A stretch of DNA of 64,000 bases from Membranipora membranacea (lineage: Eukaryota; Bryozoa; Gymnolaemata; Cheilostomatida; Membraniporidae). Position 1 is the stretch's first letter. Each line of letters opens with the position of its first letter. Under the pieces are notes generated by a model. The model saw only the letters and a list, made by a program, of their open reading frames with translations, ran no database searches and had not been told where the DNA came from. The DNA is taken from contig OU612069.1 in the NCBI GenBank assembly GCA_914767715.1, positions 6,262,001 through 6,326,000 on the forward strand, written 5' to 3'. The translations under genes and the position numbers were made by a program. This document shows, in pieces, positions 1 to 64,000 of this stretch.

Positions 1-12613
<12,613 letters not shown>

Positions 12614-12690
12614 TCACACTGATGACGTGATATACTATTGCATGTATATCTCTGATCGATAGAGAGTGAATTAATTCACTTAGCTTGAGT
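12614..12690 (-). mobile_element. Family A element, terminal fragment
   Basis: cacactgatgacgtgatata, ctattgcatgtatatctctg and gatcgatagagagtgaatta are the reverse complement of the right end of the family A elements. It sits at the edge of the tandem array. Confidence 0.6.
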
Positions 12691-17089: not shown

Positions 17090-19146
17090 GACACCCATAT
17101 CATATTGTCAGAAGAAGTCTGGCTCACAAACTACCTAAACTACACTGACGGCCACATCATAGGCTACTGTCAGAACTCAGGCCAACCTCACGTACTGCCT
17201 TAACCAAACTGACACCCATATCATACCGTCAGAAGAAGTCGGGCTCACAAACTGTCTAAACTATTCGGACACCGATACCATACGCTACTGTCAGAACTCA
17301 GGCTAATCTCACAAACAAACAAACTACACTGACGCCCATAGCATGAGCTACTCTCTGAACTCAGGCTAATCTCACAAACAGCCTATACTACACTGACACC
17401 CATAGCATACCGTCAGAAGAAATCAGGATCACAAACTGCCTAAACTACACAGACACCCATATCATACCGTCAGAAGAAGTTGGGCTCAAAAACTGTCTAA
17501 ACTATTCGGACACCAATACCATACGCTACTCTCAGAACTCGGGCTAATCTCACAAACAAACAAACTACACTGACGCCCATAGCATGAGCTACTCTCTGAA
17601 CTCAGGCTAATCTCACAAACAGCCTAAACTACACTGACGCCCATAGCATAAGCTACTGTCAGAATTAAGGCTAATCTCACAAACAGCCTAAACTACACTG
17701 ACGCACATAGCATGAGCTACTGTCAGAACTCAGGCTTATCTCACAAACAAACAAACTGCACTGACGCCCATAGCATGAGCTACTGTCAGTACTCAGGCTA
17801 ATCTCACAAACATCCTAAACTACACTGACGCCCATATCATACTGTCATACTATCATACTGTCAGAACTCAGGCATATCTCACGAACAGCCTAAACTATCC
17901 GGACACCCATATCATACCGTCAGAAGAAGTCGGACTCACAAACTGTCTAAACTATTCGGACACCAATACCATACGCTTCTCTCAGAACTCAGGCTAATCT
18001 CTCAAACAAACAAACTACACTGACGCCCATAGCATGAGCTACTGTCAGAACTCAGACTTATCTCACAAACAGCCTAAACTACACTGACGATCATGGCATA
18101 AGCCACTGTCAGAACTCAGGCTAACCTCACGCACTGCCTTAACCACACTGACACCCATATCATACTGTCAGAAGAAGTCTGGCTCACAAACTGCCTAAAC
18201 TACACTGACGGCCACATCATAGGCTACTGTCAGAACTCAGGCCAACCTCACGCACTGCCTTAACCAAACTGACACCCATATCATACCGTCAGAAGAAGTC
18301 AGGCTCACAAACTGTCTAAACTATTCGGACACCAATACCATACGCTACTGTCAGAACTCAGGCTTATCTCACAAATAGCCTGAACTACACTGACGCCCAT
18401 CGCATGAGCTACTGTCAGAACTCAGGCATAACTCACGAACAGCCTAAACTACCCGGACACCCATATCATACCGTCCGAAGATGTTTGGCTCACAAACCGC
18501 GTAAAGTACACGGACACCAATACCATAAGCTACTGTCAGAACTCAGGCTAACCTCACGCACTGCCTTAACTACACTGACACCCATATCATACTGTCAGAA
18601 GAAGTCTGGCTCACAAACTGCCTAAACTACACTGACGCCCATATCATAGGCTACTGTCAGAACTCAGGCCAACCTCACGTACTGCCTTAACCAAACTGAC
18701 ACCCATATCATACCGTCAGAAGAATTCGGGATCACAAACTGCCTAAACTACACGAACACCCATATCATACTGTCAGAAGAAGTCGGGCTCACAAACTGTC
18801 TAAACTTTTCGGACACCAATAGCATACGCTACTCTCAGAACTCAGGCTAATCTCACAAACAGCCTAAACTACACTGACGCCCATAGCATAAGCTACTGTC
18901 AGAACTCAGGCTAATCTCACAAACAGCCTAAACTACACTGACGCCCATAGCATAAGCTACTGTCAGAACTCAGGCTCATCTCACAAACAGCCTAACTACA
19001 CTGACGCCCATAGCAAGAGCGGCTGTCAGAACTCAGTCTCATCTCACAAACAGCCTAACTACACTGACGCCCATAGCAAGAGCGACTGTCAGAACTCAGG
19101 CTAATCTCACAAACAGCCTAAACTACACTGACGCCCATAGCATAAC
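17090..19146 (+). repeat. Satellite array, about 60-64 bp monomers, about 33 copies
   Basis: Monomers of two main kinds alternate. One has actacactgacgcccatagc, atgagctactgtcagaactc and aggctaatctcacaaacagc; the other has gacacccatatcataccgtc and agaagaagtcgggctcacaa. Blocks of several monomers recur in the same order (about 17150-17260 resembles 18210-18300 and 18640-18730), so there is higher-order structure. Open frames inside are repeat-derived. Confidence 0.9.
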
Positions 19147-33530: not shown

Positions 33531-34679
33531 TGGTTTTTTCTTTGACACGCCTGCAGTTTAAAGAACCTCTTTCTCTACTTGAAAATTCCAGACATTTGAA
33601 TTGTTTGATGTTCTTTGACACGCCCTTTCGTGGGTATCCTGTTTTGGTGTCACATGGCCTAACTCATTTGGTAGAGAAGAGAATAATACAAAATAGACGG
33701 ATAAATCTGCAACACAGTAAGGCAGTGTATCTGATATCAGTAGTGAGTTCAACCAAGATGTACATTATCGGGGTGAGTGTAGACCATAGAAATAGACCTA
33801 ACATAGACGTAAATTTCTGTATTGTGTAACATAAGATGTTGTTTAAATTAGTAGACAACGGCATTTTGTAACATGTTCACCTGTAAGATAAGTGTCTATC
33901 AGTCTCACAGTTATGAATTGCATTTTAATCTCCAATTCAAACACTAAGTAAAAGAATGTTAGGGCAAATCGCAATATATTTTATGCAGATTTGACGTCAA
34001 AAGTTTAATTCGCTTATTGCAATGATGCTTTTAAGATTCATAGAAATCTTATTGGAGAGCATTAGATCAAAAATTAATCAATTTAAATGACTTTTCTATT
34101 TTAGACGAGGAGGAGGTAGACCAGTATACACCACCAGGTCAGAGTACCAGTAGTAGAATCTGCTCTGTGACTCCTAACCTATCTCGCTCTTCTAGTAGTA
34201 TCTAAGTCTCCGGCACATCAAGTCATACAAAGTGAAGACGGATCCTCTGGTGACATCAGCCAATCAGATGACTACCCTGTAGCCAACAACCAATCAGATG
34301 ACTTCACTGTAGCTGACAGCAAATCAGATGAGCCCGCTGTAGCCGACAACATTCTTGAGTGTGAAGCCAATAAAGCTGTCAGGACAGCAGAAGCTTCTGT
34401 GTCAAGAAATAGAAACCGTGTACTACCACTTCCCTCATCTCAATCTGGCAGTGATGTCTCTATGGATTATTGGGCTGCTGCAGCACCAGCTAAGCGCTCT
34501 GTTGATTATGGGACCACAGTATCAGGTTCTCCAACACATGTTCAATCAACCAATGACAACTCAGTAGATGATGGAGTTGCTGTCCTCAGCGGAGCTTCCT
34601 CAATTGACTACGGGGCAGGAGTCAAACCAGCCCTGACCCTCCCTTCGTCTCAGGCAGTTAGCTGTGCGTCTTTTTTCTT

Positions 34680-35395
34680 TGAAGTTTGAAGTTTGTTTAT
34701 TGCCTAAATTCTAATATCCATCCTGGGATAGGTTGATAGCATCGAATGTACAGCACATACATGGAAAAATAAAAATAAAAGGAGTCTGAGCTGCATTAGT
34801 TAAAAAATCGCATGTAAAATTCAAAAAAGGTATTTTGTGTTTTGGTTGTTCTACACTTGGATGGCCTATATTTATCTATTTTTGCTCTACGAGCAGATGT
34901 TCTGTTTGTGTTTATTTTAATACGAGAGTTCAAGGGGTGATTATCGTTGTCAGCTATTCTAGTGAAATGTTCACTGCAAGTGGTGTGCAGGAATGTTGTG
35001 ATGGGTGGCAGTGCTAAATGGTCCAGCTTCTGCTCGTAGTTGTCAGAGAATGTTAGTACAATCCGAGTAGCAGAGCGCTGGATCCTCACGAGTCGAGTGG
35101 TTTTTGTTGAGGGTTTCCCGGACAAATTTTCTTTTGTTTTGTCTGAGGAGTCGTTGGCAGATAGTTCTCAGTAGTTTGTGCGATGGGCAGCCTTTACAGT
35201 ACGCCTCATTTTTGGCACAGATTACTTTGTGTAGTGTGTCGCTCATCCAGGGAGGTTTGTCGACCCGGACTTTGGTGGTTTTTATAGGGCAGTGATTATC
35301 AAGAATCTTAGATATAGTTTTGTTCATTAAATGAACTTTGCTGTTTATATCCTGGGTATTTAGTACTGAGGACCAAGACTGTTCAGCTAATCCCT
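34680..35395 (-). mobile_element. LINE fragment with the reverse transcriptase deleted, antisense in the RVSF gene
   Basis: Read on the minus strand, 35395-35130 gives a linker typical of the stretch between endonuclease and RT (ISKILDNHCPIKTTKVRVDK, PPWMSDTLHKVICAKNEAY). Then 35125-34796 gives an RT C-terminal tail (LVRIQRSATRIVLTF, LDHLALPPITTFLHTTCSEH). The catalytic RT core between them is missing. The 3' end at 34680 carries short tandem copies of caaactt, as seen in CR1/L2-like elements. Confidence 0.65.
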
Positions 35396-37777
35396 TCAGA
35401 ACCATAAGCTTTCCAACTGTTGACAATGGAGCTGAGGAAAAACTTGTAGAGAGAGGGACAAAGAAGAAGAAGACAGTCGGGAGTACAGCCAGCGACGTTT
35501 CTCAGGCCCACAGTCGTGTTCCAGCAGATTCTTGTAGAGTGTTACCTGAGCCCACTCCTTTTCGAAACGTCCCAATCTTGAGATTAACATCCCAGTGCCA
35601 GAGGCCCCAAAATCCAGAAAGAGAAAGAAATCAGTACCCAGACAACAAAAGACACCACGCCCAAGGAAGCAAGCTGCTGCTAAAGCTCTGCAGAGAAAAA
35701 GGTAGCAGCGGGGGAAAACTGACACATTCTACTTAGTGTCCCAGGCTGGCTCTTAATGATGGCTTAGAATCATCCAATAAGTCACCTTGGTTCACACCTA
35801 TTGCTAAAAAGAAGCGCATATCCAACATTCAACAAAAAGGTAAGAAGGTTTCTGAGCACAAGCAAGATCAGAATGAGCCCATACAAACAAGTGAAAACAC
35901 ACAGCAAAGACGCTCCTTCAGTCAAGATAATAGTATTGTCCATAGCTCAGTAACTTTACCATGGGAAGGAAGGAAAGTGTTCTCTTGAGTTAACCGCTCA
36001 CATAGCTCTCATAACTCGGCTAGATTGGCTACAAAAGAATCAACTGACCATGTTGTGGTTGATGAGGTTGTTCTACCTAGTGTGGAGAGTGAACGAATGG
36101 AGCCTATGCAGAAGCGTGATGACATTGAAGGGAATTCGCACTCTGGGCCTTCTCTGACCCTCAACTCTGTAATTAGTCCACATCAAGAACCTGAGGCCAC
36201 ATCAACAGAAGGCCCAGTGGTTGGGTCTGCTGCACCTGATAACGAATCGATTCTCTGTGAGAATGAAACAAATTTGGAAGTCAAAACCAAACCATTTACA
36301 CCCAAACAGTTTCTGAAAACAGTTGATATCAAGCTGGCTGACAGCCCAAGTATAACCCAGGATCAACAGCCATCAGATGAAAATGAAATCAATGTTCAGG
36401 TTGACCCTGAGCCTGATGTTATGGGAAATCCCCTTTTGGAAAACCAAGGCTTGAGCGTAGCAACAAAAGGAACAACATCAAAAATCATGAAGTTCAAGAA
36501 GCCTGTTGCTAAGGCCGACAGTCCCCCAGCGGTTTAATTACGAGATAAGGTATGTGAAAAGTTTGCTGACGTGAGCTTGTCACAACAGATTAAGAATTCC
36601 CAAAAAGAACCTGTTGATGAAAGGCCCATCGTGAAAGATAGCATGACAAAGGTGAACAAGAAAATCACTAAAAGTATGCAATTAAATGTCAGTTGGGCAG
36701 TTACTGGTCATTTTAACAATATTGCCTCAACACACATCTAAAACAAAGTACATGACGGTGGTGTCACACCTTCTAGTGCACTCTTATCTCATAGAAATCC
36801 ATCAGAGAAGCATTGTGCTGTATCAGATGTTACACAGATAGACAACGATACTGTGCCAGAAACACAGGATGCTCCTCCTGTCGCTACAGGAATGGGCGAT
36901 GATGAGAAGTTTGAAACTGTACCTGAAACCCAACAGTCCAGGCTGGAGACTGGCGGAGATGTTGAGGCTGAGGTGTCAAAAACACCATCATAAGTTCAGT
37001 GTGACAGCGATAGTGCAGCTGACAAGGAACATGTAAACGCTCAGCCTATTGAAAAAAATTACTGTCCCATCTCCAATCACAGTGCGGCCTAAGCGAGGTA
37101 GACCCGCTAGGAACACCCGGACAAGAACGCGATCGGAGCCTACTAAACCAGCTACTACAAAGAGAGCAGCAAGTAAGCGAGCGAGGAGCCTATCAGAGCC
37201 ACAACCCAGAGCACCTGCTGATGATGAGGAAATCAAAAGTGTGTAAACCAAACCTAGAGTGTCATTCGCTGAAATAGTTAAGTATGCCATGACGCCGCGT
37301 ACTAGAGGTCAAGCTATAGTGGTTATGTTTGAAACGCCTGAGTTAAGTGGTGCCATCACACCTATCAAGACTATACTGAAGTCAACTGGATCAACTCCTG
37401 GTAAAGAGTTACATGCAAAGAGCTTTGATTGCTACAATGCTGTGGCCGGAGAGATAACTCCCAAGGCCATGCCTGCCAGTGATGGTTTGGTAGACGAAAC
37501 TGGAGATGACGTATCGTCCAATTCAGATGACACTACAGTGAAGGCCGATAGTATAGCAGCTCGCACTACATTGAAGGACCATAATTTAGCAGATTACAAC
37601 ACTAAAGAGAAGGCCCATAATATAATGGATGACACTATAGTGAATGTCTGTAACCCATGTCCGGCTCAACATGAAAACAGCAGCAGCAGCAGTCACTTCA
37701 TGTTCATCTATCCACCTGTTGAGATGAGTGATCAGATTGATTTAATCGAATTTTGGTTATGGAGGACAATGAATTGA

Positions 37778-40725: not shown

Positions 40726-41160
40726 TCAGTGCTTATATTGCCTTTGGGTAGCCAAGCTTTTTAGGAGACTCTCCTTTGTATGCTTGGATCTTCGTAGAGG
40801 ACCTGTACTGCTCACTACAGGAGGAAGAACAAGGTTCTTCTGAAGTGTATTTCGCGATTCTGGAGACTGATCATACTTGTCTCCTTCATTCTCCTTCATG
40901 CCCATGACAGCATTTGTAACCATCTCATGTATGGTTGTCTTCCCATCAGCCTTAGCAAACTGCCTGGCTATGGCTCCAGTAAGAGCTCCTCTGACAGCCA
41001 TCTCTCCAACCACTGTTGACATCAGTAGCAGTGTATGAGGCCTCTTTAGTACGACATGGTCCACCTCATTTGGTTTACCTTCCTTTGCATCAGAATGGCA
41101 TGCTGAAGGTCCAGCTGCTTGTGTAGGGTTGTAATATTGGCAGGCCTGAACTATGGCAAT
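40726..41160 (-). CDS. Last exon: caspase catalytic Cys and p10-like part
   Basis: Starts IAIVQACQYYNPTQAAGPSA. Cys in QAC aligns with the caspase nucleophile, but the following Arg-Gly are Gln-Tyr. It goes on with HTLLLMSTVVGEMAVRGALT and GAIARQF, the p10 strand-helix pattern, then a basic tail (RRSKHTKESLLKSLATQRQY, KH) and a stop. Acceptor cacattgtag. Confidence 0.88.
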   Translation of the reverse strand: MAIVQACQYYNPTQAAGPSACHSDAKEGKPNEVDHVVLKRPHTLLLMSTVVGEMAVRGALTGAIARQFAKADGKTTIHEMVTNAVMGMKENEGDKYDQSPESRNTLQKNLVLPPVVSSTGPLRRSKHTKESLLKSLATQRQYKH

Positions 41161-44100
41161 CTACAATGTGTATTATATTATATCGATTGACTACGAATAT
41201 TTTGAAAGTATGATTTAGTGTGCAACCGTAGTTACAATTTTATTTTGTTTGATAGTCAACAGATGGTTATTATTCGAATGGGAAGTTATCACATCATCAG
41301 CCCATGCCACATATTGATCCATTTTTTCGATCATCAGCATGTTTGCTGCCGTGGAGTATTGAAGAACGAATACATACCATTGGGACTTGCTCAGACAACT
41401 TATTGTCTAGTATCTGTAGAACATCAGTGATGGGGATATGCGAGCCATTGCAGCCATACAGCATTCCGGCTTTTCCATGGGTCATGATGGAGATGACAAG
41501 AAGGGAGATTCCTTGGGATGGAAGCTCATCAATTCTGAGACGCAGGACTAATGCACTTTTCCATTCTATCTTCTGAGTCTCGCATCCTGCTGTGACTAGG
41601 CTGTCAGCCATTTTATTAGCTTCATCTTCAGCATCAGGTCTATTCTCGGTGTTGAACAGCACCAGACCGTACCTCTTCATATGATCTTGATGATGTGGTA
41701 TGATGTACTGGTCACTCTGAACAAATAGTCGATTGATGTCGTTAGCGTCTAATGGATGCTTCTCTATGAGCTCCTTCAGTATCTGTGACTTGTCACCTGG
41801 TTAAAATTAGAATTCAAGTCGAAGAGATATAGACAACCTGCAGCTTCCATTCTATTGTATATATAGCATTTTACAATTGTAGATTTTAATATTTAAATGA
41901 GACATATATATGATTGTGACATATAAACTCATATTTAAGACGAGTGGTTGTCATCATTAGTATGCATTGATGTACCCAACAAATATCTCTGCTAGCTGTG
42001 CAACTTGGTGTCACATTACAGTAATGTCAGTTGTAGCACCTTACCACTGACTTCAGATATAATGATAACCATAGCACATATATAACTTGAATCAAATTAG
42101 CAGACTTTTGTTAGAGAGTCATAGTTGGCTAGATCAAATTTTGTTCATTTGCTTGATTTTCAAGTTTCTCCCATTTATGGTCACACTAAGATGATCACAC
42201 ATAATATGTATAATGTAATATATAGATGTAATACAACAACTTTTAATGGGTAAAAACTGATTAAACATGTACTAAGTTTTATAAATTTTAATTCAAATTA
42301 ATTCGGAAACTTACTTGATAAGACAAGCTTTGATATGTAGTCTTGAAGTTCAGTATGACCAGCCTCTGTTATGCTTGAGCCTAAAATATTCGCAAAAAAT
42401 CATTGATAATAAAATGAGTTTTCCATGCACACAAAAATCAGTGTCTGGGAGGGCTGCTGAAGAGGGGGTTCAAGGTAGGTAAGCAGCTGTAGTGGCTGGA
42501 GCACAGGGAGATGGTGCTTCAAGTTCATTTTATTAAAGCAATTTGCCTTTTCCATGCCAATAAAGATACTTTACACTATGATAATACATATTTTTATGAC
42601 TTTTACATACATGGTTTCATGAGTGGTTGAGGAACAAGTCGGTTCTCTTTGTTCTGCACTTCCTTTCTGCAGACAAACTTCTCATATCCGGTATAGCTGG
42701 GAGCTTTTTCTCTAGAACTATCTGGAACATCCTCTTGGTACCAAGCAGGATCAACAGCTGTTTGTGGGTCTAGTTTGATAGTTAGTAGGCAGTGAGAACA
42801 GTAGAAGACACTCTCATAACGAACTCCTTTCCAGACAGATTTGAGTTCGGTGGTGAGCTTTCTCAGGGTCGAAATCTGCTCTTCTCTCGCTTCACAGAGG
42901 CTTTTCTGAGGTGTCAGAGTGATTAGAGTGACACACTTTTCACCTGCATTGTGAAGGAGGTGTTCGATTATCCCATTACTCTTGGTCACAGTAGCACCAT
43001 TCCCACCTGCCTCTGGAAAGTTTGAAGGATTAGAATTCATGTCTAGATAGACGGCAGTGATGAGGGAGAAGATGTAGCTGGGTATGGGTAGACCGCGGAG
43101 ATGAAGATCGACCTTCAACGGCACCAGTTGATCGTACACTTCAGGGGCTGTTATTGTTCGGCTGGCAAAATACGGTATAATGTATTTCTGATTGCTTATT
43201 GCAGCATTTGAACCGCATTGATGCACAAGATGAAATGTTCTTAGGATTTCGATGGACACATCGGCAGGGAGTTGGGATTCTTGCCCTAAGAGGTGTAGAA
43301 GCAGAGGTGCATCCATCACTCCTGTGTCATTGAATGTGTCTATCATCTCTACATATCTGCTCTTCTCTATGGTTTTTCCGTCAACAAGAGAAAACGGAGT
43401 AAATTTATCTAGCCTTTTGTACCAGGATTCCTCTTTTGTGTGGTTGTAAAGGACTTCTATCACACTTGTTATGACTTTAGAGCGATGGAATATAAAGTTT
43501 GATAGCTTGTTTAGTCTCCTGAACCACATTATTTGACTTATTTCATGAAGATACTCGAGAGTGACATGTCCTTTATCATCAGGAAATTCTTTCTCTATTT
43601 CAGACAGGGTGAGCATGGGCTTGTCAATGTGTTGGACTAGCTTCTGTAGTATTCGATACCAGCTACCGGGAATCTCAGTGATTAATCCTGCACCAGCTGC
43701 TATGATAGCATTTTTCAGCTTGTCGATTTCAGGCTGTCCGGATGTCTTTGAGAAGTGATGGATGTCACAAGGCCTTATCAGGACTTCTGAGGTGTTGGCG
43801 AAGCTGGTCATGGTGAAGATCGGGTTAGAGTCATTTTTCTGTTCGACATTATTTTCTGCTTGAATTATACGTTGGCGCAATTTCTCAGTCACTTTGAGCA
43901 GTTGATGAGTCGTCTGTTCAACCTTATCAGGTATACTGTCACAGTGAGTGAGGACTACTACGGGTCTTTTCAGTTGAGGACACGCAATGTAGAGGTGGGA
44001 TAACCACTCAATACAAAGCTCTTGACAGGCAGATTCCTCACCTTTCTCTGAAACTAATTTATCAAACTCAGCAATGTCTATCACTAGCAGCGGCACACAT

Positions 44101-47100
44101 TTTCTTCTAAAAGTCAGTCTATAGGAAAATTGATAGATCTTCTGGCCTCCGAAGTCAGTAAAGAGTATTTTTGATTTCCCGTCAGTTTCCGCCTCGCTCA
44201 TTTCAAACACTTTAGTGGCAGCATCCAATTTCCCCTCATCAGAATCGCGTTGTGTCAGCACCCTTTTGTTTGCTTGCACACTGTTAACAAGGCTTGTTTT
44301 ACCAGCTCTGCTTTTCCCGATGACAGTGACAGCTATAAGTCTCTGATTGCTGGCTTTCTCAATATGGAGGTCATGAATGTACTTTCTCACAGCTTCTACA
44401 CCTTGCTTACAGACACCTAGTGGTGGAGATGTTAGAGAATCACAGTTATCACACTTTAATTTTTCTAATGTGGGGATACTGAATAAGCTCTCGGGGATGG
44501 TTGTGAGAGATCTGTTTTTCTTGATATCCAAAGACTTCAGATTAATCAGCTGGCTGATGCTGCAAAAGAACAGAAGATAAAGTGTATTGTGTGAGAAGGT
44601 AAAACTGGTCATCTGGTAATCATCTTATTCAGAGGGGATAATGCTGGGTAGAGAGAGATGTGGCAAAGTATGCTGAATCGTTGGGTAAGTAGAACCTTCC
44701 TACAACTTCTTTAAAGAAATGAAGGTGAATTGGTTATAAGGTCCTTTTAACTAACAAAATGAAAATGCTCCAATTCAATTTCAATGACAATCTAGAATAA
44801 TATTTATGAATGCATACAAATTTTTATATACGTGTTTCTGTAATATTCATAGAGACTCGACGATATTTGAGTTCATTAACTTCAAGCTCAAAAACATTTC
44901 TGAGATAAACTCATCTAGGCTCAACATTATCTGTAAGTATTTAAAAAATTAAAGTGCATGGATTCGAGGAAGAGACACAGGGGTCAGTGAATATCAACAT
45001 TCTGTATTCCACTGGAATGCTGCATAGCTACTGATCAGTAACAGCTCATAAAAATGTGATTGGATGACATTGTGTCATTTCATCCAAGAAATGAGGCCAA
45101 AAAGGCTGTTTTTACGAAAGTGGGTGGCTGAGCTGATATGATTTCTGTATATTTCAAAACAGGTTATATTTATTCTTAGAGATATAGTTCATCCTGAATT
45201 TACATTGAAAATAATATGTGATGGGCCTTTTATGTCACTTATTTATGCCAGTGATCTTTTAAATTTTATGATTCAATGTGAAATTTTTATGCTACGATTT
45301 GAGACAGATCGGATAATTTTTGCTGTTTCCCACTGAAGTGCTGTTTGAATGACACATAACAATAAATTATCAAGATCATCGAGAGTAGATAAATTTTGCC
45401 TCATTTTTACATAGAGCCAAACATGCTGTCAAAGGGACCATTACAAAGGCTAGACCTTTTTTAAAAAAGAAATTTGTCTGGCCTAAATGATGGTCCTTTT
45501 GACAGGATGTTTTGCACTATGGAAAAATGACCCGAATTATATCTACATTCGATAGTCTGTGCTGATGTTGAATACTTGCACTGCCAAATTTGGAAGAGAA
45601 TCAATTTAACTGTGAAGATTGTTGTCAATAAATGTTAAGAAAAAAGTGTTATACTGCTGAAAATTTGTGTGTGGGTCATTCAAACAGCACTTTAGTCGAT
45701 AATAGCGAAAAATTGGCTCTTACTTATTCGGTCTGTCTCAAATAGTTGCTTAAAATTTCACATTATTGATCATCAAATTTCGAAAACCATGTGATGTAAA
45801 ATGCCGCAGTAGGCTCATCATATATCATTTTCAACCAAAAATTGGGATGGTCTATTTCACTTAGAAAAAATATGACCTGTTTTGAATTTCTTAGCAATCT
45901 AATAAGCTCAGCCATCCACATTATCTCGTACATGGCGGACATGGCGGACATGATAAATTTCAGCTCTGATAAAAATTAACATAATACAAACAATACCAAC
46001 ACTCAACCTAGTACTACGGAACACTCAACCCTGCAGAAAGGTGTACCAAACCACAAGATCAGTTCCTGAACACTGCCAGCTGGATACGAGGAGTCTTTGG
46101 TTGTCTTAGGAGGGTCACTGTGGCTGATCATTTTTGGCGGGAAACTGAAAACTGAGAAAGTCTAGAGTAGCTACACCAGTGGAACATCAAACAACTCTAA
46201 CATCTTGGTATTTATAGCACAAATATCAAAACCACAACTGCACCATCTTATTCAAACCTATGATAACCCTTCTTGCCCATTTAAGAATAGCCATATACTA
46301 TCCCCTGAGCTCTAGAGCTAGCGCTTGGTAGGTTGGTGATTTCTACTACCTTTGCTTACTTGCACTGATCATAGTGTTCTGAGTTTGTCAGACATGGCTG
46401 GTGAGACTAGCAGTAGGCCTAACAGTAGAGATAGCAGTCCTGCCTCAAAGAACGTTGGCTGTGTTGTGTGTACAATGAAAAAAGTTAAGAAGCTAAATCT
46501 TATCTGTGCAAGTTGCAATAAACCAGCCCATACCACCTGTATGGAAGACTGGAACGAAATCACAACTGGTCAAGATCTCAAAAATATAATTGGTAAATCT
46601 AGTTCACTCTGGTACTGTCACGCTTGTCTCCCTAAATTACCGACTTACTTTCCGGCACCTGGTGTTCGAGAAGCACTAGATTCGGTCGGCAAAAAGCTAG
46701 AGAATATGATGAAATTGATCGCTGTCACTAATACTAATAATGAATCATATAGTGAGGGGAGGTGAGTCCAAACCTGACCCAACTGTGAATCAAGTCTCAG
46801 GTCCAGCTCAAAGGCTTGACGATCGACTCAAACAGGTTGATAAAGTCAATGCTAAGCAGATTGGGAAAACTTGTGCCATTTTGCACGAAATATCTGAGGA
46901 ATCTAATACACATTCCATAGTATTTGATTCTCTTGCTGATCTTTCTATGCATGAACACACTGTTGTAGAAATTAGCAGGTTAGGCAAGCAAAAAAGTACC
47001 TACTCCGAACCTCGCCTTATAAAGATTCGAAGTCAACAAGATCGAATTCATGAAATGTTACAGTAAATACGAGGGCAGAGAGGATTCATTTGCTACCAAC

Positions 47101-50100
47101 GATCTATCACCAGAGATGAAAGACCTCGAGTACCAGCTGCGTATCAAAAAACGTGAATTAACCCAAGCTAACACTGGGTCTAAATATCAGGTACGCAATG
47201 GGGCACTCTACATCTACGATAAAACAGCCAAACTATGGACAATAGTCGAAGTTGACTTAGAACAGATATCGGTTACTCAAACTGCATCATCAAATACTGA
47301 CCAATCACTGCCTAACAGTGTATAAATCAACAGCTAACGAAAACCAACCTACTACCATTATAAACAATAAACACAATCTAAAAATCATGTATTGGAACTG
47401 CAACGGCATCAGCGGTAAGAGACACCACCTCAAAACTATGCTAGACCATCATACACCGAACATCTTCGCTCTTTCCAAGACAAAACTTCTCACCTCCATC
47501 ACCGATCGTGAAGTATGCGATAAATACACACTCCATCGCTACGACCGCACTCACGGTGTGGGTCGTGGTGGCGGAGTACTTGTAAGTATATCCAACAGTA
47601 GTAACATCCATATATTGAAATGTAACAAATATGATGGTGGTGAAATCCTTTCGCTTGATGTAAATGTTAATGGTTTTTCTTTTGCGTTCGTAGTTTATTA
47701 TCACCGGCCGTGCGTGAAAAACATAGATGATTTTCTAGCTTGGCATAAATCTATCCTATCTGCAAAGACAGTTGTTGTCGGTGACTTTAACCTGCCCGAC
47801 ATTGACTGGCGAACATCTTCACTGAAAAATAGGAGAGATCTGTATATGCATACTTCGCTTTTAGATTTTCTAGATTCCAGTGACTTAACGCAACATGTGA
47901 AGTCACCCACTCATATCCTCGGAAACATTTTGGATCTCATTCTCACAAATCTGGAGATATCTGAACCTGACATTCAACCCAGTAGTTCTGATCATCATTG
48001 TCTAACCTTCAATCTGTATTCTGATGTCCCAGTCATACATGCTGCACCTAGCGTGAACCCGACTCAATACTGGAAGTTCCACAAAACTGAAAAAAACTCT
48101 TCTTGCGTTTCTCAGTTCGACACTTCTCAGGATAGTATTTTGATATTACAGGTGTATGAGAGGATGTTTTAAAATTATTGATCTTGATTCTATTAAAAAA
48201 GAGGATGGCTTGAGTCCTCAGAAACTTTGCTAAAATAGTGTGCACAGACAGAAAATAAAAACTTGTCAGTCTTTAGAAGATTAAGCTGATCTAATAAAGA
48301 AAAATAATCATCAACCTCGGTTAAAACAATTTTACTACTAGTTTTATCTCAATCTTTACCAGAAAGTGATGACATAATGGAGTCATTTGCCTGATAATCA
48401 AGTTATTGATATTACTAAACTGGTTTGGCAGATCAAGCAATATTTATCAAGCTACCATACAGATTACCAATACTAATTTACAACAGTCCAAGGCTGTGAA
48501 TACCTTCCAAAAACTCTCCTGACTTGATGACTGCTAGCCTCATTCATACCTGGGGTGTATTGCTATTTAGGTGAATTGAGATTTTCAATCCAAGAATATT
48601 TCTTGCCAAAGTATGTATGTATGTATGTATGTATGTATGTATGTATGTATGTATGTATGTATGTATGTATGTATGCATGCATGCATGCATGCATGCATGC
48701 ATGCATGCATGCATGTATGTATGTATGTATGTATGTATGTATGTATGTATGTATGTATGTATATTGTATTGTTATCAATACTTGATAAAATTCATTGTTG
48801 TTTTGCTCTGTGATGCCAAAAAATATAAAATAAATTATAAATACAAAATATTAAAAAGTAATTGTTATTATTATGATTACCAAGTTATAGATTCACTTAG
48901 TTGTTATTATAAATACATGATTTTCAAGTGGGTTATGTGGAGTGTACGTCATCATAAATATTTTCCTGAATTAATATCAAAAAATGTATTATTGGGATAA
49001 AATTATGGTTATGACAGTGCTGTACAACTATCGGTTAGAAACTGTGTCGTTTGCTTATTTAAGCCTGCATGACAAGAATAAGTACCATTTTTAACAGCAT
49101 GGTAAGAGCGTTTGAATTTGTAAGAACAGAATTCCTAATTTGGCAATACGTGGGCGTAGACTTGTGATACAGATAGTAGTTTGAACTTGATCTGTGCTGC
49201 TGAAAATTACTTATTATAATTATGATTTATTATGATATTCATTGTTTATTTGAGCCAATTGTTAAATATTAAATGAAATCATTTTCAGTTACATAGACTA
49301 TGAGCCAACCTGCCAGCATGTCCGAAAACAATAAAACTAATCAGGTGGTAAAGACTGTGACAATAATTAATTTCCATTTTTGTTTGCGTTATATAATTTT
49401 GAGAAATTAGGTGCTTTAATTCATCAAATTAAGAAAGTATGGCCTCATATCTGACTGTGCATTGATACAATGTTAAACCGTTGATTTTTAATTTAAAACA
49501 CCCACCAGAGGTGTGCGGCTGATGGGATTCCAAACTGTCCACTTGTGTCCATGTGTCCTTTGCCCATCTGTTGGACACATTTGATGGGAAATTTGTATTA
49601 ATGGACAGACAATTTTAGCTGGACGGATAGACCAAATTGAATGGCCAATTTTTTTTCAGCTCAATGACCTCCTCCCACTTGCTCTGAATGAAATTACATT
49701 GGCGTCAAAGCGTTTTTGGACTGATCAATTTAACGAGCCACCTGGGAAAGAGGTATGTGTTGGGTATACCATGAATTGGGTACATTTTTAATAGAAACAG
49801 AGGGGAAAAAAAATTGCATAGTATACCACCTGTATTATTGAACCTTATTGGTGTGAGAGTTGAACAATCTAACCTCTTATATCATTGGCTGACCTATATA
49901 TCTCAGGCAAACCAAGCCAATGTTCCCTCCCATGACCCTAAGAGAGGTAACAAACCAACTGGTGCTTAGTGTGCATCACCACCCAGTGGTGCGTCTACTG
50001 TAACCGATGTGGAATTTGATCAAACACCAGACGATACCCAAAGTTTGATCATCAGTCATTCCAGAAGCGACCCGTCCTTGTTTGTTGGTGATCAAGTTGA

Positions 50101-52175
50101 AGATTAGCCAAAAGTTGAAATCCCCGAAAGCTCACGCCCAAGAGCAACCTCTGGTTCTTCCAGATCTGGCAAATTTGCCGTTGTCAAAAAAAGTTATTAA
50201 AAGTAAAATCAACTCTCTTCTCCCTGACCAAGCCAAAACCCAAAGAGGGAGATGATTGAACTGAATAACAATAGTAATAATGAATTAATATGGTGATTGA
50301 ATTTTAATGTAGGGTTTTTAGAAGAAACGTTGAATTTAAACCATGTTATATCTTGCATTATAGCTTGATAGTGTCCCTTTCTACATTAATTATATAATCA
50401 ATTCCATATGTACCTATTCCATGTTTCTTACCAGCTATATAATTATAAGTAGTACCAGATTCATCATCTTGACCAGTTGCTTGAAATTTAAACCATGATG
50501 CATCACATCCTTGTCATATTCATTGTCTTTACCAGGTGTGTGATTAATACTAATGATGAATTCCAAGTGCCTGGTTAGCTCGTCGGTTCAATAACTTACG
50601 GAGCTAGTTATACTTGATCTGACCATAACAATTCCAATATCACAGTGAGACGCCAGTCCTTTTTAACCATCCCCATATCTCACTCCCCTATGTTGATTTC
50701 CTTTCCAATACACAATCGAGAAAAAAAGGAAGACATGTGAGAATTGAATAAAGAGGGAAGGCATGTGAGAGTTGAACAATCTAAACTCTTATATCATTGG
50801 CCTATATATCTCAGGCATAGATCGGAACTACGTCAGAACCCGGGAACCTCAAATGTGTGCCTCAGCCCTTTACATCTAATATTTCAAGGTGAGAAGTCAT
50901 AAAATTAATTCTCTCATCAATATTAGCTATTATACTTGTCACATAAGTATCACAATTGGAACAGACCTAAATGGACCTAGATGAACATGCGCGGCAATGG
51001 CTGGTTTAGGCAACAAAGTTTTTTGCAATCATTGATTTGAGTTTCATATATCACCAATACAACGTCAATCGAACCAAGTCACATTTTATTAAAGCAGTCT
51101 TTTAGAAACCAGTCTTCGGTCAAACACTTATTTTCTCTTGACATACTTTTTTGAGAACAAACTACTGCAGCCTGTCTAGCAATCCTGTACAAAGAGAACT
51201 AGTTGTGATACTGTTGAGCTATTTGAAGACTAGATGCATAAAAATGACAAAAAGAGAAGGTTTTGTTAATTTGAAAATGTCCAGTTATGTCTTTTCTCTT
51301 TACATGAGAGCTTCAATTCAGTTTCGATCAATGAAACTTAATAGGTGACCAATTTTGAATTGTGTGCATGATGAATATTGCTAATATAGTTAAATTGTTA
51401 ATATCGAATTGTATTATAATTGCATATGTATGTCCTTTCATTTTCCTTGCGCCTATTTAAATCGATGATGCACCAACTAAATTATTTGCACTTTAAACCG
51501 GAGTTCCCAATTTTAAGTTTTCCTGAAAGAAATGTTGGTGTAATGGGGTCAGCCCAATGTTGTCCTGACCTCTTTTAGCGCCGCTGTAAGGAAGCGCATC
51601 TCGCTTACCCAAAGGTTCTACTGTTGCAAACATCTGACTCACATGTTTTTTTCAGATATTCGTAGGTATTTCTAGCGATGCAAGTTACACGATTCAGATT
51701 TGAAACTTATTCTATAATTGCTGACTAAAAATATAGACTTAATATGTAAATATCAATGCTTTATTAAACTTGCTTTCTAGTGATGCATGTTATGGGATTC
51801 AATTTATCAATCCATAGTGACATTTCACTCCATCCATAAAAAATGTGGAGTATTCACTAGCCTTAGCTTCTGACTGGTATAATTGTGATGCATTGATACT
51901 CGATGCATCAAAGACAGATGTTATGACATGTTATGTCAATGAGATTAAACTTAACCTAACCCAGTCATAGGAAACTTTAAGATAAATCACCATACTCACA
52001 GGGAAGAAACTAATTGTGTCTGCGTCTGACTCACCTGTCTGGAAGGCTGGTCAAGCCACAGCCACTCGCAACTATACTCTTCAATGATTGAATTTCCCCC
52101 AATCCTGCAGGTAATGTCTGTAGACCCTTATTCCCACTAACATCTAACGACTCCAGTCCTGGCAGTGTGAAGATG
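40726..52175 (-). CDS. LRR-Roc-COR-caspase protein, 5' incomplete, five exons seen
   Basis: Exons in reading order: 52175-52035, 44559-42611, 42380-42315, 41796-41378, 41160-40726 (TAA). All borders are AG/GT and all phases agree, giving 1002 visible residues. Residues 1 to about 95: leucine-rich repeats (LESLDVSGNKGLQTLP, LKSLDIKKNRSLTTIP). About 120-300: Roc GTPase with P-loop GKSRAGKTS (128-136), DFGGQ (182-186) and THCD (251-254) as base-specificity motif. About 343-690: COR, beginning IPGSWYRILQKL and containing YIIPYF. About 757-950: caspase-like fold with MTHG (His825) and QAC (Cys865) and a p10-like LLLMSTVVGEMAVRG. The canonical QACRG is QACQY. Known ROCO proteins usually carry kinase, death or no C-terminal domain, so a caspase here is unusual. 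By analogy it may be a sensor-switch-protease in cell death or defence; that is inference. Upstream LRR exons were not found. Confidence 0.9.
41378..41796 (-). CDS. Exon: linker and caspase p20-like part with His
   Basis: Reads DKSQILKELIEKHPLDANDI, NRLFVQSDQYIIPHHQDHMK and RYGLVLFNTENRPDAEDEAN, then GISLLVISIMTHGKAGMLYG and CNGSHIPITDVLQILDNKLS. LVISIMTHGKAG is the p20 strand with the catalytic His, and IPITDVLQIL the next helix. Forty residues separate His and the Cys in the next exon, as in caspases. Donor atg|gtatgt. Confidence 0.9.
42315..42380 (-). CDS. Short exon between COR and caspase
   Basis: Twenty-one full codons: SSITEAGHTELQDYISKLVL, S. Acceptor aatattttag, donor caa|gtaagt. 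Phases fit both neighbours (split Cys before, split Ser after). Part of a linker or a short pro-domain; no death-fold signature can be seen. Confidence 0.8.
42611..44559 (-). CDS. Large exon: last LRRs, Roc GTPase and COR
   Basis: An uninterrupted 1949-base exon. It joins the LRR exon so that LTSLPD continues as SISQLINLKSLDIKKNRS, keeping the LRR register. Roc motifs: GKSRAGKTS, DFGGQ, THCD. COR: IPGSWYRILQKLVQHIDKP, MWFRRLNKLSNFIFHRSKVI and YIIPYFASR. The Cys-containing end (VFYCSHCLL) precedes the donor cat|gtatgt. The acceptor is ttcttttgcag. Confidence 0.93.
44621..45110. other. Intron of the Roc-COR-caspase gene, no content seen
   Basis: AT-rich sequence without exon, repeat or element that I can support. 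Confidence 0.5.
45115..45925. mobile_element. Foldback element, about 810 bp, arms up to about 400 bp
   Basis: gtgggtggctgagctgatat at the left pairs with aataagctcagccatccac at the right. Further pairs are aaacaggttatatttattct with aaaaatatgacctgttttg; gagacagatcggataatttt with attcggtctgtctc; and gaagtgctgtttgaatgac with gtcattcaaacagcacttt. The centre pairs ctgtcaaagggaccat with atggtccttttgacag. It lies in the large intron. Old, imperfect arms; no coding capacity. Confidence 0.8.
46394..48172 (+). mobile_element. LINE with PHD-finger ORF1 and AP-endonuclease ORF2; RT missing
   Basis: ORF1 starts at ATG 46394. It has a PHD-like set CVVC...CASC...HTTC...CHAC (46461-46627), then a coiled-type region broken by frame changes near 46745 and 47050. 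ORF2 from about 47370 is an AP-type endonuclease: MYWNCNGISG, GRGGGVLVSI, VVVGDFNLPDIDW, NILDLILTN, SSSDHHCLTF. The conserved Glu of the usual ET motif is Ser (ALSKTKL), and the frame stops at 48172 before any RT. It lies antisense in the large intron of the Roc-COR-caspase gene. Probably a dead CR1/L2-like copy with its 3' part lost. Confidence 0.85.
48611..48762 (+). repeat. ATGT/ATGC microsatellite, 152 bp
   Basis: (gtat)n, then (gcat)n, then (gtat)n again, without a break in phase. It gives MYVC and MHAC repeats in open frames on both strands, which are artefacts. Confidence 0.95.
49308..50110 (+). pseudogene. Remains of a small unrecognised gene, copy 1
   Basis: Possible first exon at 49308 (MSQPASMSENNKTNQ before gtggta). 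A second exon has lost bases compared with copy 3 but keeps LNDLLPLALNEITLASKRFW and TDQFNEPPGKE before gtatgt (end 49751). A third, 49908-50107, starts after tctcag and reads ANQANVPSHDPKRGNKPTGA, stop, CASPPSGASTVTDVEFDQTP, DDTQSLIISHSRSDPSLFVG, DQVED, stop. Two in-frame stops and the deletions show it is not intact. No family recognised. Confidence 0.45.
51541..52034. other. Intron of the Roc-COR-caspase gene, no content seen
   Basis: Unique AT-rich sequence up to the donor of the LRR exon (minus strand). No exon or repeat supported. Confidence 0.45.
52035..52175 (-). CDS. Upstream LRR exon
   Basis: Forty-six full codons: IFTLPGLESLDVSGNKGLQT, LPAGLGEIQSLKSIVASGCG, LTSLPD. Two LRR units. 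Starts and ends in the same phase as the LRR part of the next exon, so exons of this kind could have been duplicated. Acceptor ccaccacag, donor acag|gtgagt. Confidence 0.88.
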
Positions 52176-62560: not shown

Positions 62561-64000
62561 ATGCCTACTCCTAGAATCAGCCGGCTGTTTGGTGAGAGAA
62601 CCCAGGCTTACCAGAGTAACTCAGCTGAACACCGCATATTAAAAGGGCAAGTCCAGAAAGCCATAAGAGAGGCAAAGCATAATCATGCCTCAGATATTGA
62701 GACTAGAATGCAATGTAATAGTAGACTAGCATGGAGTCAGTTGAAGTCAGTCTTGAAATTAAAAGATAATGCAAAAGGGTGCTCTCTTGATTCTGATGTA
62801 TTGAATGCTTTTTTCAATCGTTTTGATAAACAGAGTGAGTGTCCAGACTTACCATCTCGTGAACCTATTTTTGATGGTTTTTTCTTTTGAGGAAGTTTAT
62901 GCAACTCTATGTAATGTACAAACGTGTAAGAGCCCGGGTCCAGACAACATCACCGCAAAAATGCTCAAATGTGCTGCATCCACCCTAGCACAACCCCTGA
63001 CACTGCTTTTTAATCGATCACTTCAGGAAGGTGTTATGCCTAGAGTTTGGAAAACAGCAAATATCAAACCTATTCCTAAGTGTGCAGGGGCATCAGATCC
63101 TAAAGATTTTAGGCCGATAGCCCTCACCTCCATCGTGGGCAAATGTCTCGAGCGTCTGGTTATGAAACGACTCGCACCATTACTAGACGACCCCATCCAG
63201 TTTGCGTATAAGTCTGGTAGGTCTACTGAAGATGCTCTAATCACTCTGATCGACTCGGTAACTGAACATCTTGACAGCAATGCTAAAAATCGGGTCCGAG
63301 CTCTTTTTATAGTCTTTTCTAGTGCTTTTAACACCATCAATCCTGCCACAATAATCAGCAAACTCGATAGCTACAGCATCAATCCTAACATCATCAACTG
63401 GCTATATAACTTCCTTACAAATAGAACACAGCAAGTTATTACATCACTCAACACGTCAAAATCATTGAGCACTTCAACTGAAAGCCCTCAGGGATGCGTC
63501 ATCAGCCCACTGCTATTCTCCTTTTATGTTGTCGATATGCCATCAACAAGCAACATCAAACTAGTAAAACATGCCGGCGACACTGTGATCATTGAATTGT
63601 TGACAGAAAACCAGCCATCTGAACTTCAAACAATGACTAATACCATCAACTCATGGTGCGCGGATAATGACCTAATACTCAATGCAAAGAAAACAAAAGA
63701 AATGGTCATGTGCAATGCAAGGGATAACCCAAGCTACCCACAACTGCTTGTAAACAATACTTCAATTGAGCAGGTAGAACAATTTACATACTTAGGCACC
63801 ATTATTACCAACAAACTGGATTTTACTCTGAACACCCTGAAAACTACAGCGAAAGTCCTTCATAGAGTCAGTAATCACGTTCCACCTGGTTGTGCTATAT
63901 AGTCATCTGAGCGCAGACTCTAAGAAAAAGTTAAAATCTGTGATAAGAACTGCAGGTTACCTATCAGGCGAACTTACGTTCACACCCGTAGACGACCTTG
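62561..64000 (+). mobile_element. LINE ORF2 fragment: linker and reverse transcriptase, damaged, runs off the window
   Basis: Linker from 62561 (SAEHRILKGQVQKAIREAKH), frame change at a T run near 62880, then the RT: CKSPGPDNITAKML, FRPIALTSIVGKCLERLVMK, IQFAYKSGRSTEDALITLID, SPQGCVISPLLFSFYVVDMP. The first catalytic Asp is Val (LFIVFSSAFNTI), and the ADD of the active site is AGD (KHAGDTVI). A stop at 63902 is followed by a matching tail in another frame (HLSADSKKKLKSVIRTAGYL), continuing past the edge. Not active. Similar in type to the CR1/L2-like pieces at 46394 and 34680. Confidence 0.88.

Follow-up and report, generated by a model that had tools for sequence, protein, structure and literature searches.

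Can a single animal gene hold the leucine-rich repeats (LRRs), Roc GTPase and COR domain of a ROCO protein together with a caspase? The question is raised by 64,000 nucleotides of DNA from the bryozoan Membranipora membranacea (assembly GCA_914767715.1, contig OU612069.1, positions 6,262,001 to 6,326,000), here called the window. A preliminary description, made from the letters alone, had read on its minus strand an LRR-Roc-COR protein ending in a caspase-like domain, and had assumed a sponge as the source, which was mistaken. We regard the LRR-Roc-COR-caspase architecture in one gene as near certain. The earlier reading is right as regards the union of LRR, Roc, COR and caspase in a single gene; what it missed is that the gene has a family of over 100 members.

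The gene was read as five exons with agreeing phases, as had been described (coordinates in Table 1). All of them are present in the sequence and the four introns between them are all GT..AG. Spliced, they give the single open frame of 1002 residues that had been claimed, though it starts at a splice acceptor and has no initiator methionine. The protein model is therefore incomplete at its 5' end, and no upstream LRR or start exons were found with an LRR pattern (regular expression) or by tblastn with full-length relatives. The LRR exon was joined across a 7.5-kb intron solely by phase (2-2) and LRR register. The 66-nt linker exon recurs at the corresponding position of 7 of 8 paralogous loci (weakly, E 0.006–0.47) and is covered by the BLASTP alignment with a gene model of another bryozoan, Watersipora subatra (P0023). 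Paralogs show the same 3' exon layout; in a copy that is 98% identical (L041), the 3' exons are present, all six splice sites are identical and the frame is open. The ratio of nonsynonymous to synonymous substitutions (dN/dS) against this copy is uninformative because its introns are as similar as its exons.

In a Pfam scan of the joined protein, Roc scored 28.9 bits against a cut-off of 27 (residues 124–254), which confirms the GTPase of the preliminary description, and LRR_8 scored 27.1 bits, also against 27, with LRR_4 just below its cut-off. No match to NACHT or NB-ARC was found in it up to E 1. The P-loop, G3 and G4 labels that we attach to the Roc motifs are a presumed assignment. Among 52 relatives, Roc was matched at E ≤ 0.01 in 49 and COR-A in 28. 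The window chain itself remained under the Pfam cut-off for COR-A (E 0.19), so that the COR claimed earlier stands by way of relatives and of a relative's fold: the predicted model of Watersipora P0049 aligns across Roc-COR with LRRK1, LRRK2 and CtRoco. On this basis a COR domain is predicted directly after Roc. Between COR and the caspase, C634, C637 and C677 are invariant and C697, whose codon is split by an intron, is nearly so in 24 aligned family sequences; this Cys-rich tail had no Pfam match in the scan of the joined protein, and our guess is that it may form a zinc site.

The caspase-like p20/p10 carries His825 and Cys865 exactly where they had been placed, the latter within QAC (residues 863–865). 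A profile search for Peptidase_C14 (PF00656) in residues 750–950 had been proposed as a test of the preliminary description, and it came out in its favour: Pfam matched the domain at residues 767–968 of the joined protein with E 2.6e-12 (47.3 bits; cut-off 21.4). The two caspase exons taken apart gave E 1.3e-3 and 4.4e-5, and the far better joined score is what would be expected if the splice is right. Three window-type copies that were scanned scored 48–60 bits, and in the PDB the caspase part matched (phmmer) caspase-2, -8, -3 and a caspase-1, weakly (E 0.0027 and up). A chance domain match was rejected on the strength of the joined C14 score and of the recurrence of caspase-like sequence at paralogous loci. 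A decayed or pseudogene caspase was rejected as well (no stops; dN/dS below 0.5).

Relatives outside the genome were searched for with residues 1–700 (8000 candidates scored). The 45 matches comprised 22 environmental open reading frames (ORFs) over the ROCO exon (P0001–P0022), P0023, which has both the ROCO and the caspase parts, and 22 more distant LRR/ROCO proteins, for none of which PF00656 is listed. One environmental ORF, P0004, shares 97% identity with a locus of Membranipora; the others of this set are 45–68% identical to fetched Membranipora loci and 30–35% to Watersipora. A search from P0023 gave 32 matches, 20 of them Watersipora models. In eight of these 20 (P0023, P0046, P0048, P0049, P0051, P0058, P0066 and P0070) Peptidase_C14 follows Roc-COR, with E 3e-22 to 5e-37 (hmmscan); several LRRs open P0046, P0048, P0058 and P0070, and P0023 and P0066 open at Roc. 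The domain order thus recurs in a second invertebrate, as the preliminary description had proposed to check. The P0049 caspase, whose best PDB matches are CED-3 and then caspase-2, -9, -3 and -8, is of animal type by these matches, and the predicted P0049 model folds as Roco plus caspase, with its p10 at low confidence. Relatives were also sought in viral contigs and prokaryote genomes, and none was confirmed there.

Whether the chain runs on past COR was judged from the donor that closes the COR exon. If a donor in phase 1 has the sequence T|GTRAG or T|GTATG, translation through it must yield a Cys and, as the next residue, Lys (AAG), Glu (GAG) or Met (ATG). The Pro-Cys (PC) motif at this place is found in 31 of 33 environmental ORFs (not in P0018 and P0075), and in 30 of these a K (12), an E (16) or an M (2) comes next, in P0003 an R. 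None of the 17 Watersipora models with the motif has K, E or M next. The phase-1 donor was seen directly in the DNA of 23 of 25 Membranipora loci. This signature in ORFs and in paralog DNA indicates that the chain continues past COR across the family. Two adjacent genes, a ROCO and a caspase in tandem and duplicated together, would be favoured by an in-frame ATG just 5' of the caspase domain in the p20 exon and by the 12 Watersipora models for which no C14 is listed. We consider this arrangement very improbable, given that the window COR exon ends in the conserved donor and not in a stop, that the phases of the downstream exons match, and that fused models exist in Watersipora, which belongs to another bryozoan family. 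As to how such models are made, the accessible text of the Watersipora assembly paper describes an Ensembl annotation built primarily by transcript alignment; the models used here are NCBI's. Another arrangement, compatible with a ligand-gated fusion receptor, is that one gene gives a ROCO-only and a ROCO-caspase form by regulated splicing. If the intron after 42611 is retained, a stop follows right after Pro-Cys-Met (the read-through ORF terminates at 42603) and a ROCO-only protein results; skipping of the linker exon, at 66 nt, keeps the frame; and some Watersipora models have no full C14, although these may simply be incomplete. We think it unlikely, if conceivable, that both forms are made.

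The genome (339,339,785 bases, 18 contigs; the window lies on contig C5) was searched with two Pfam profiles, PF08477 (148 matches; 150 of 372 candidates scored) and PF00656 (145 matches; 140 of 515), and also with the window exon (68 matches; 68 of 376) and with a query of another class (68 matches; 68 of 251). Of the PF08477 matches, 69 in long frames with a single-exon ROCO look were kept. At least 130 Roc ORFs of at least 500 amino acids (aa) were obtained, the window's included: 108 from the union and 22 more from the search with another class, whose non-overlap with the 108 was judged by eye; COR was checked only in homology matches. In 58 of the 130 (45 of the 108 and 13 of the 22), a listed C14 match lies on the same strand no more than 4 kb to the 3' side, the window's own caspase not being among those listed; for the 108, no listed C14 match lies on the opposite strand or upstream within 12 kb. 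The window exon has 5 copies at 96–98% identity on the same chromosome and 11 at 82–94%; its gene sits amid very recent copies, at 4.3–7.3 Mb of C5 (96–98%), with those at 82–94% at 21.7–22.5 Mb of C3.

Twenty-five loci were fetched, 23 from the PF08477 search (L009–L031) and two from the window-exon search (L040 and L041). In all 25, caspase-like sequence begins 0.5–1.7 kb 3' of the COR exon on the same strand. QAC is present in 23; the exceptions are L030, with QASSG and a His-containing core that lies 7 kb from the COR exon on its 3' side, and L029, whose fetched stretch takes in no more than the beginning of p20, with a C14 match 2.2 kb past the end of that stretch. Weak caspase matches in the LRR array 5' of the COR exon of L040 (four at E ≤ 1e-3, one at E ≤ 1e-5 with 36.6 bits) were taken as spurious. 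ROCO and caspase parts co-diverge (Mantel r 0.56 for the 25 Membranipora loci, and again 0.56 for a set of 32 sequences that includes Watersipora; 0 of 2000 shuffles in both cases), with L029 dropped, shuffling that ignores relatedness, and a few intron read-through residues in the cores of window-type loci. The window-type paralog L040 (3–3530, +) has LRR array, Roc and COR in a single open frame of 2462 aa, with about 22 near-identical LRRs in the fetched part; in the window gene the LRRs are on separate small exons. In L010 (4974–6991, +) two caspase-like stretches come after the ROCO exon, one of window type and then one in which Thr stands in place of His (STG); they may be an active/inactive tandem.

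Two caspase classes can be told apart. In the common one (16 of the 25 fetched loci by Cys motif), His and QACAG or QACSG are close together in one p20 exon. In the window class (L019, L022, L023, L027, L040, L041 and, in part, L010), an intron separates His from Cys, the motif is QACQ and p10 is shortened. The window chain has QACQY where caspases have QACxG (L040 reads QACQG); the Gly so lost is one that we take not to be catalytic. With these changes and the shortening of p10, the domain is taken here as a putative protease, and the main rival to an active enzyme is a pseudoprotease or scaffold of the cFLIP kind, still fused in the gene, that binds and regulates other caspases or catalytic paralogs. 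Its case draws also on the weak C14 score (47 bits, as opposed to 128 in Watersipora P0023) and on L030, a member of another class without the catalytic Cys. Nevertheless, His and Cys are retained in all six window-type copies, as is an Asp-Ala in the p20/p10 linker. Gly826 after His and Gln863 are kept, as are R771 and R915, which align with Arg columns of Watersipora and are presumably the S1 arginines for Asp specificity; p10 is cut short just past R915. The copies are open, and dN/dS was 0.11–0.42 in 14 of 15 pairs (one was saturated), values that are only indicative, as several dS are high, and that point to purifying selection on the window-class caspase. A pseudoprotease role for the window subclass appears rather unlikely.

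The reading that we prefer, at a probability of about 0.68, is a large bryozoan family of single-chain receptors (LRR, Roc, COR, Cys-rich linker, caspase) in which ligand-gated Roc-COR pairing activates the caspase. The receptors are probably intracellular. The LRRs would bind a microbial or damage ligand, and binding would change Roc's nucleotide state and the Roc-COR dimer. The pairing of two chains would bring two caspase domains together, as is needed by initiator caspases, which are switched on by pairing. The paired caspases would first cut their own linker between p20 and p10, with Asp882-Ala883 as the probable site, and then further targets, leading to cell death or an immune response. 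Sensor, switch and protease would thus share one chain, with no need of the adaptor domains of animal inflammasomes and apoptosomes (CARD, DED or death domain); none of these was seen in the chain, whose N-terminus is missing from the model. According to the part of the literature consulted (PMC6337361), Roc-COR dimers form chiefly by way of COR, in a cycle that depends on the nucleotide. By analogy, the function may be inflammasome-like. More tentatively, and with slightly less than even confidence, the family could be an undescribed animal receptor system of well over 100 germline genes, each a one-chain 'inflammasome' with a variable LRR array, in which an LRR-gated dimer of a Ras-type GTPase switches its own caspase without any NLR, adaptor or death-fold step, in parallel to bacterial LRR-Roc-COR-caspase proteins and possibly independent of them.

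Several observations weigh against the preferred reading of caspase-activating receptors. QACQY in the window subfamily and a p10 about 9 residues shorter than in Watersipora after the Arg may alter activity or Asp specificity, and at L030 (344–556, −) the catalytic Cys of the caspase core is a Ser. For twelve of the 20 Watersipora models, C14 is not listed. Nine of them were rescanned; eight were without C14 up to E 0.05, and in P0059 the match was only partial (E 0.0021, below cut-off, first 49 profile positions; the model ends there). In the nine of these 12 that have the PC motif, it is followed by 28–170 residues. A search with residues 600–1002 returned one match, a ROCO exon, and no relative of the caspase part. 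Finally, the 25 fetched loci are listed, mostly high-scoring matches and so a non-random pick.

Table 1. Exons and domains of the ROCO-caspase gene in the window
Feature	Position	Strand	Details
LRR exon	52035..52175	-	47 aa, two repeats, phase 2-2; LRR_8 E 3.7e-4 in own ORF; AG/GT; tblastn of relatives
LRR end-Roc-COR-Cys-rich tail exon	42611..44559	-	closes with phase-1 donor CCAT|GTATGT
Roc GTPase domain	43938..44330	-	protein 124-254; P-loop GKSRAGKT, G3 DFGG, G4 THCD; Pfam Roc
COR domain, approximate limits	42900..43670	-	COR-A matches of relatives and P0049 model match
Cys-rich tail after COR	42611..42800	-	conserved cysteines
Linker exon, 66 nt	42315..42380	-	also in paralogous loci and L041
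Caspase p20 exon	41378..41796	-	His825 codon 41477-41479
Caspase Cys strand, linker and p10 exon	40726..41160	-	Cys865 codon 41140-41142; stop TGA

Elsewhere in the window, the 7.5-kb intron holds pieces of the LINE (long interspersed nuclear element) type at 46340–48172 (+), with an endonuclease ORF (Exo_endo_phos_2, E 2.4e-11) and an ORF that by eye resembles a zinc finger; another such piece, a reverse-transcriptase-like ORF (by eye), lies near the window end (62805–63902, +). Long low-complexity ORFs on the opposite strand, 3' of the ROCO-caspase gene (34171–37777, +), are perhaps exons of another gene. Long tandem arrays, with units of 150/300 bp and 64/121 bp, occupy 11491–12614 and 17090–19145, and a (GTAT)n microsatellite 48611–48762.

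To our knowledge, bryozoan immunity has been little studied. A very large, clustered and recently duplicated family is the pattern typical of immune receptor repertoires, and one animal polypeptide would here combine a death-protease domain with ligand sensing and a GTP switch. Such a protein may do in one chain what other animals do with alarm complexes of several proteins. It is also a compact system for asking whether Roc-COR dimerization drives an enzyme by proximity, a question raised for LRRK2 as well. NLRs, and CED-4/Apaf-1, work with caspase-1/CED-3 through a repeat sensor, a nucleoside triphosphate (NTP) switch and an oligomer-driven caspase, and it is these three features that we propose as the likeness to the inflammasome and apoptosome. 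The differences are a Ras-type GTPase in place of NACHT/NB-ARC, a caspase fused in the chain and, as far as the incomplete chain goes, no CARD, DED or death domain.

A further comparison involves the peptidase family IPR009003, which we take to be trypsin-like. In brown-algal ROCOs, as far as the sections consulted describe them, LRR-Roc-COR is likewise followed by a C-terminal peptidase in an expanded family of candidate immune receptors, but the peptidase is IPR009003, not a caspase, and the group has three members (PMC11378527). The animal and amoebal Roco proteins covered by the consulted part of PMC6337361 (LRRK1/2, MFHAS1, DAPK1 and Dictyostelium Roco) have LRR-Roc-COR alone or with a kinase, DAPK1 a kinase and a death domain, and no protease is described there. 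ROCOs of the placozoan Trichoplax have an animal Roc-COR, and the legend key available names CARD, which is caspase-recruitment and not caspase, and TIR (PMC4104024). A possible related case is Dysidea avara, where one legend on NACHT proteins names both CASc and COR (PMC12909245, legend text). Among the papers listed in searches of open-licence PMC literature, which lacks most subscription papers, there was no report of an animal LRR-Roc-COR-caspase. For bacteria, the earlier remark that no ROCO protein with a caspase fold was known does not hold: the portion of Kaur et al. 2021 consulted names at least 24 effector domains on LRR-Roc-COR proteins, a C-terminal caspase being one of them (PMC8195603). 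As described there, the bacterial LRR-AP-GTPase (Roc)-COR-caspase proteins share with ours the order LRR-Roc-COR-effector and the occurrence of several paralogs per genome, and a role against invaders is proposed for them (PMC8195603). The bryozoan proteins differ, by that description, in an animal-type caspase, in split genes and in a Cys-rich module between COR and caspase. What is new here would be an animal counterpart of these bacterial conflict proteins, at an unusual family scale.

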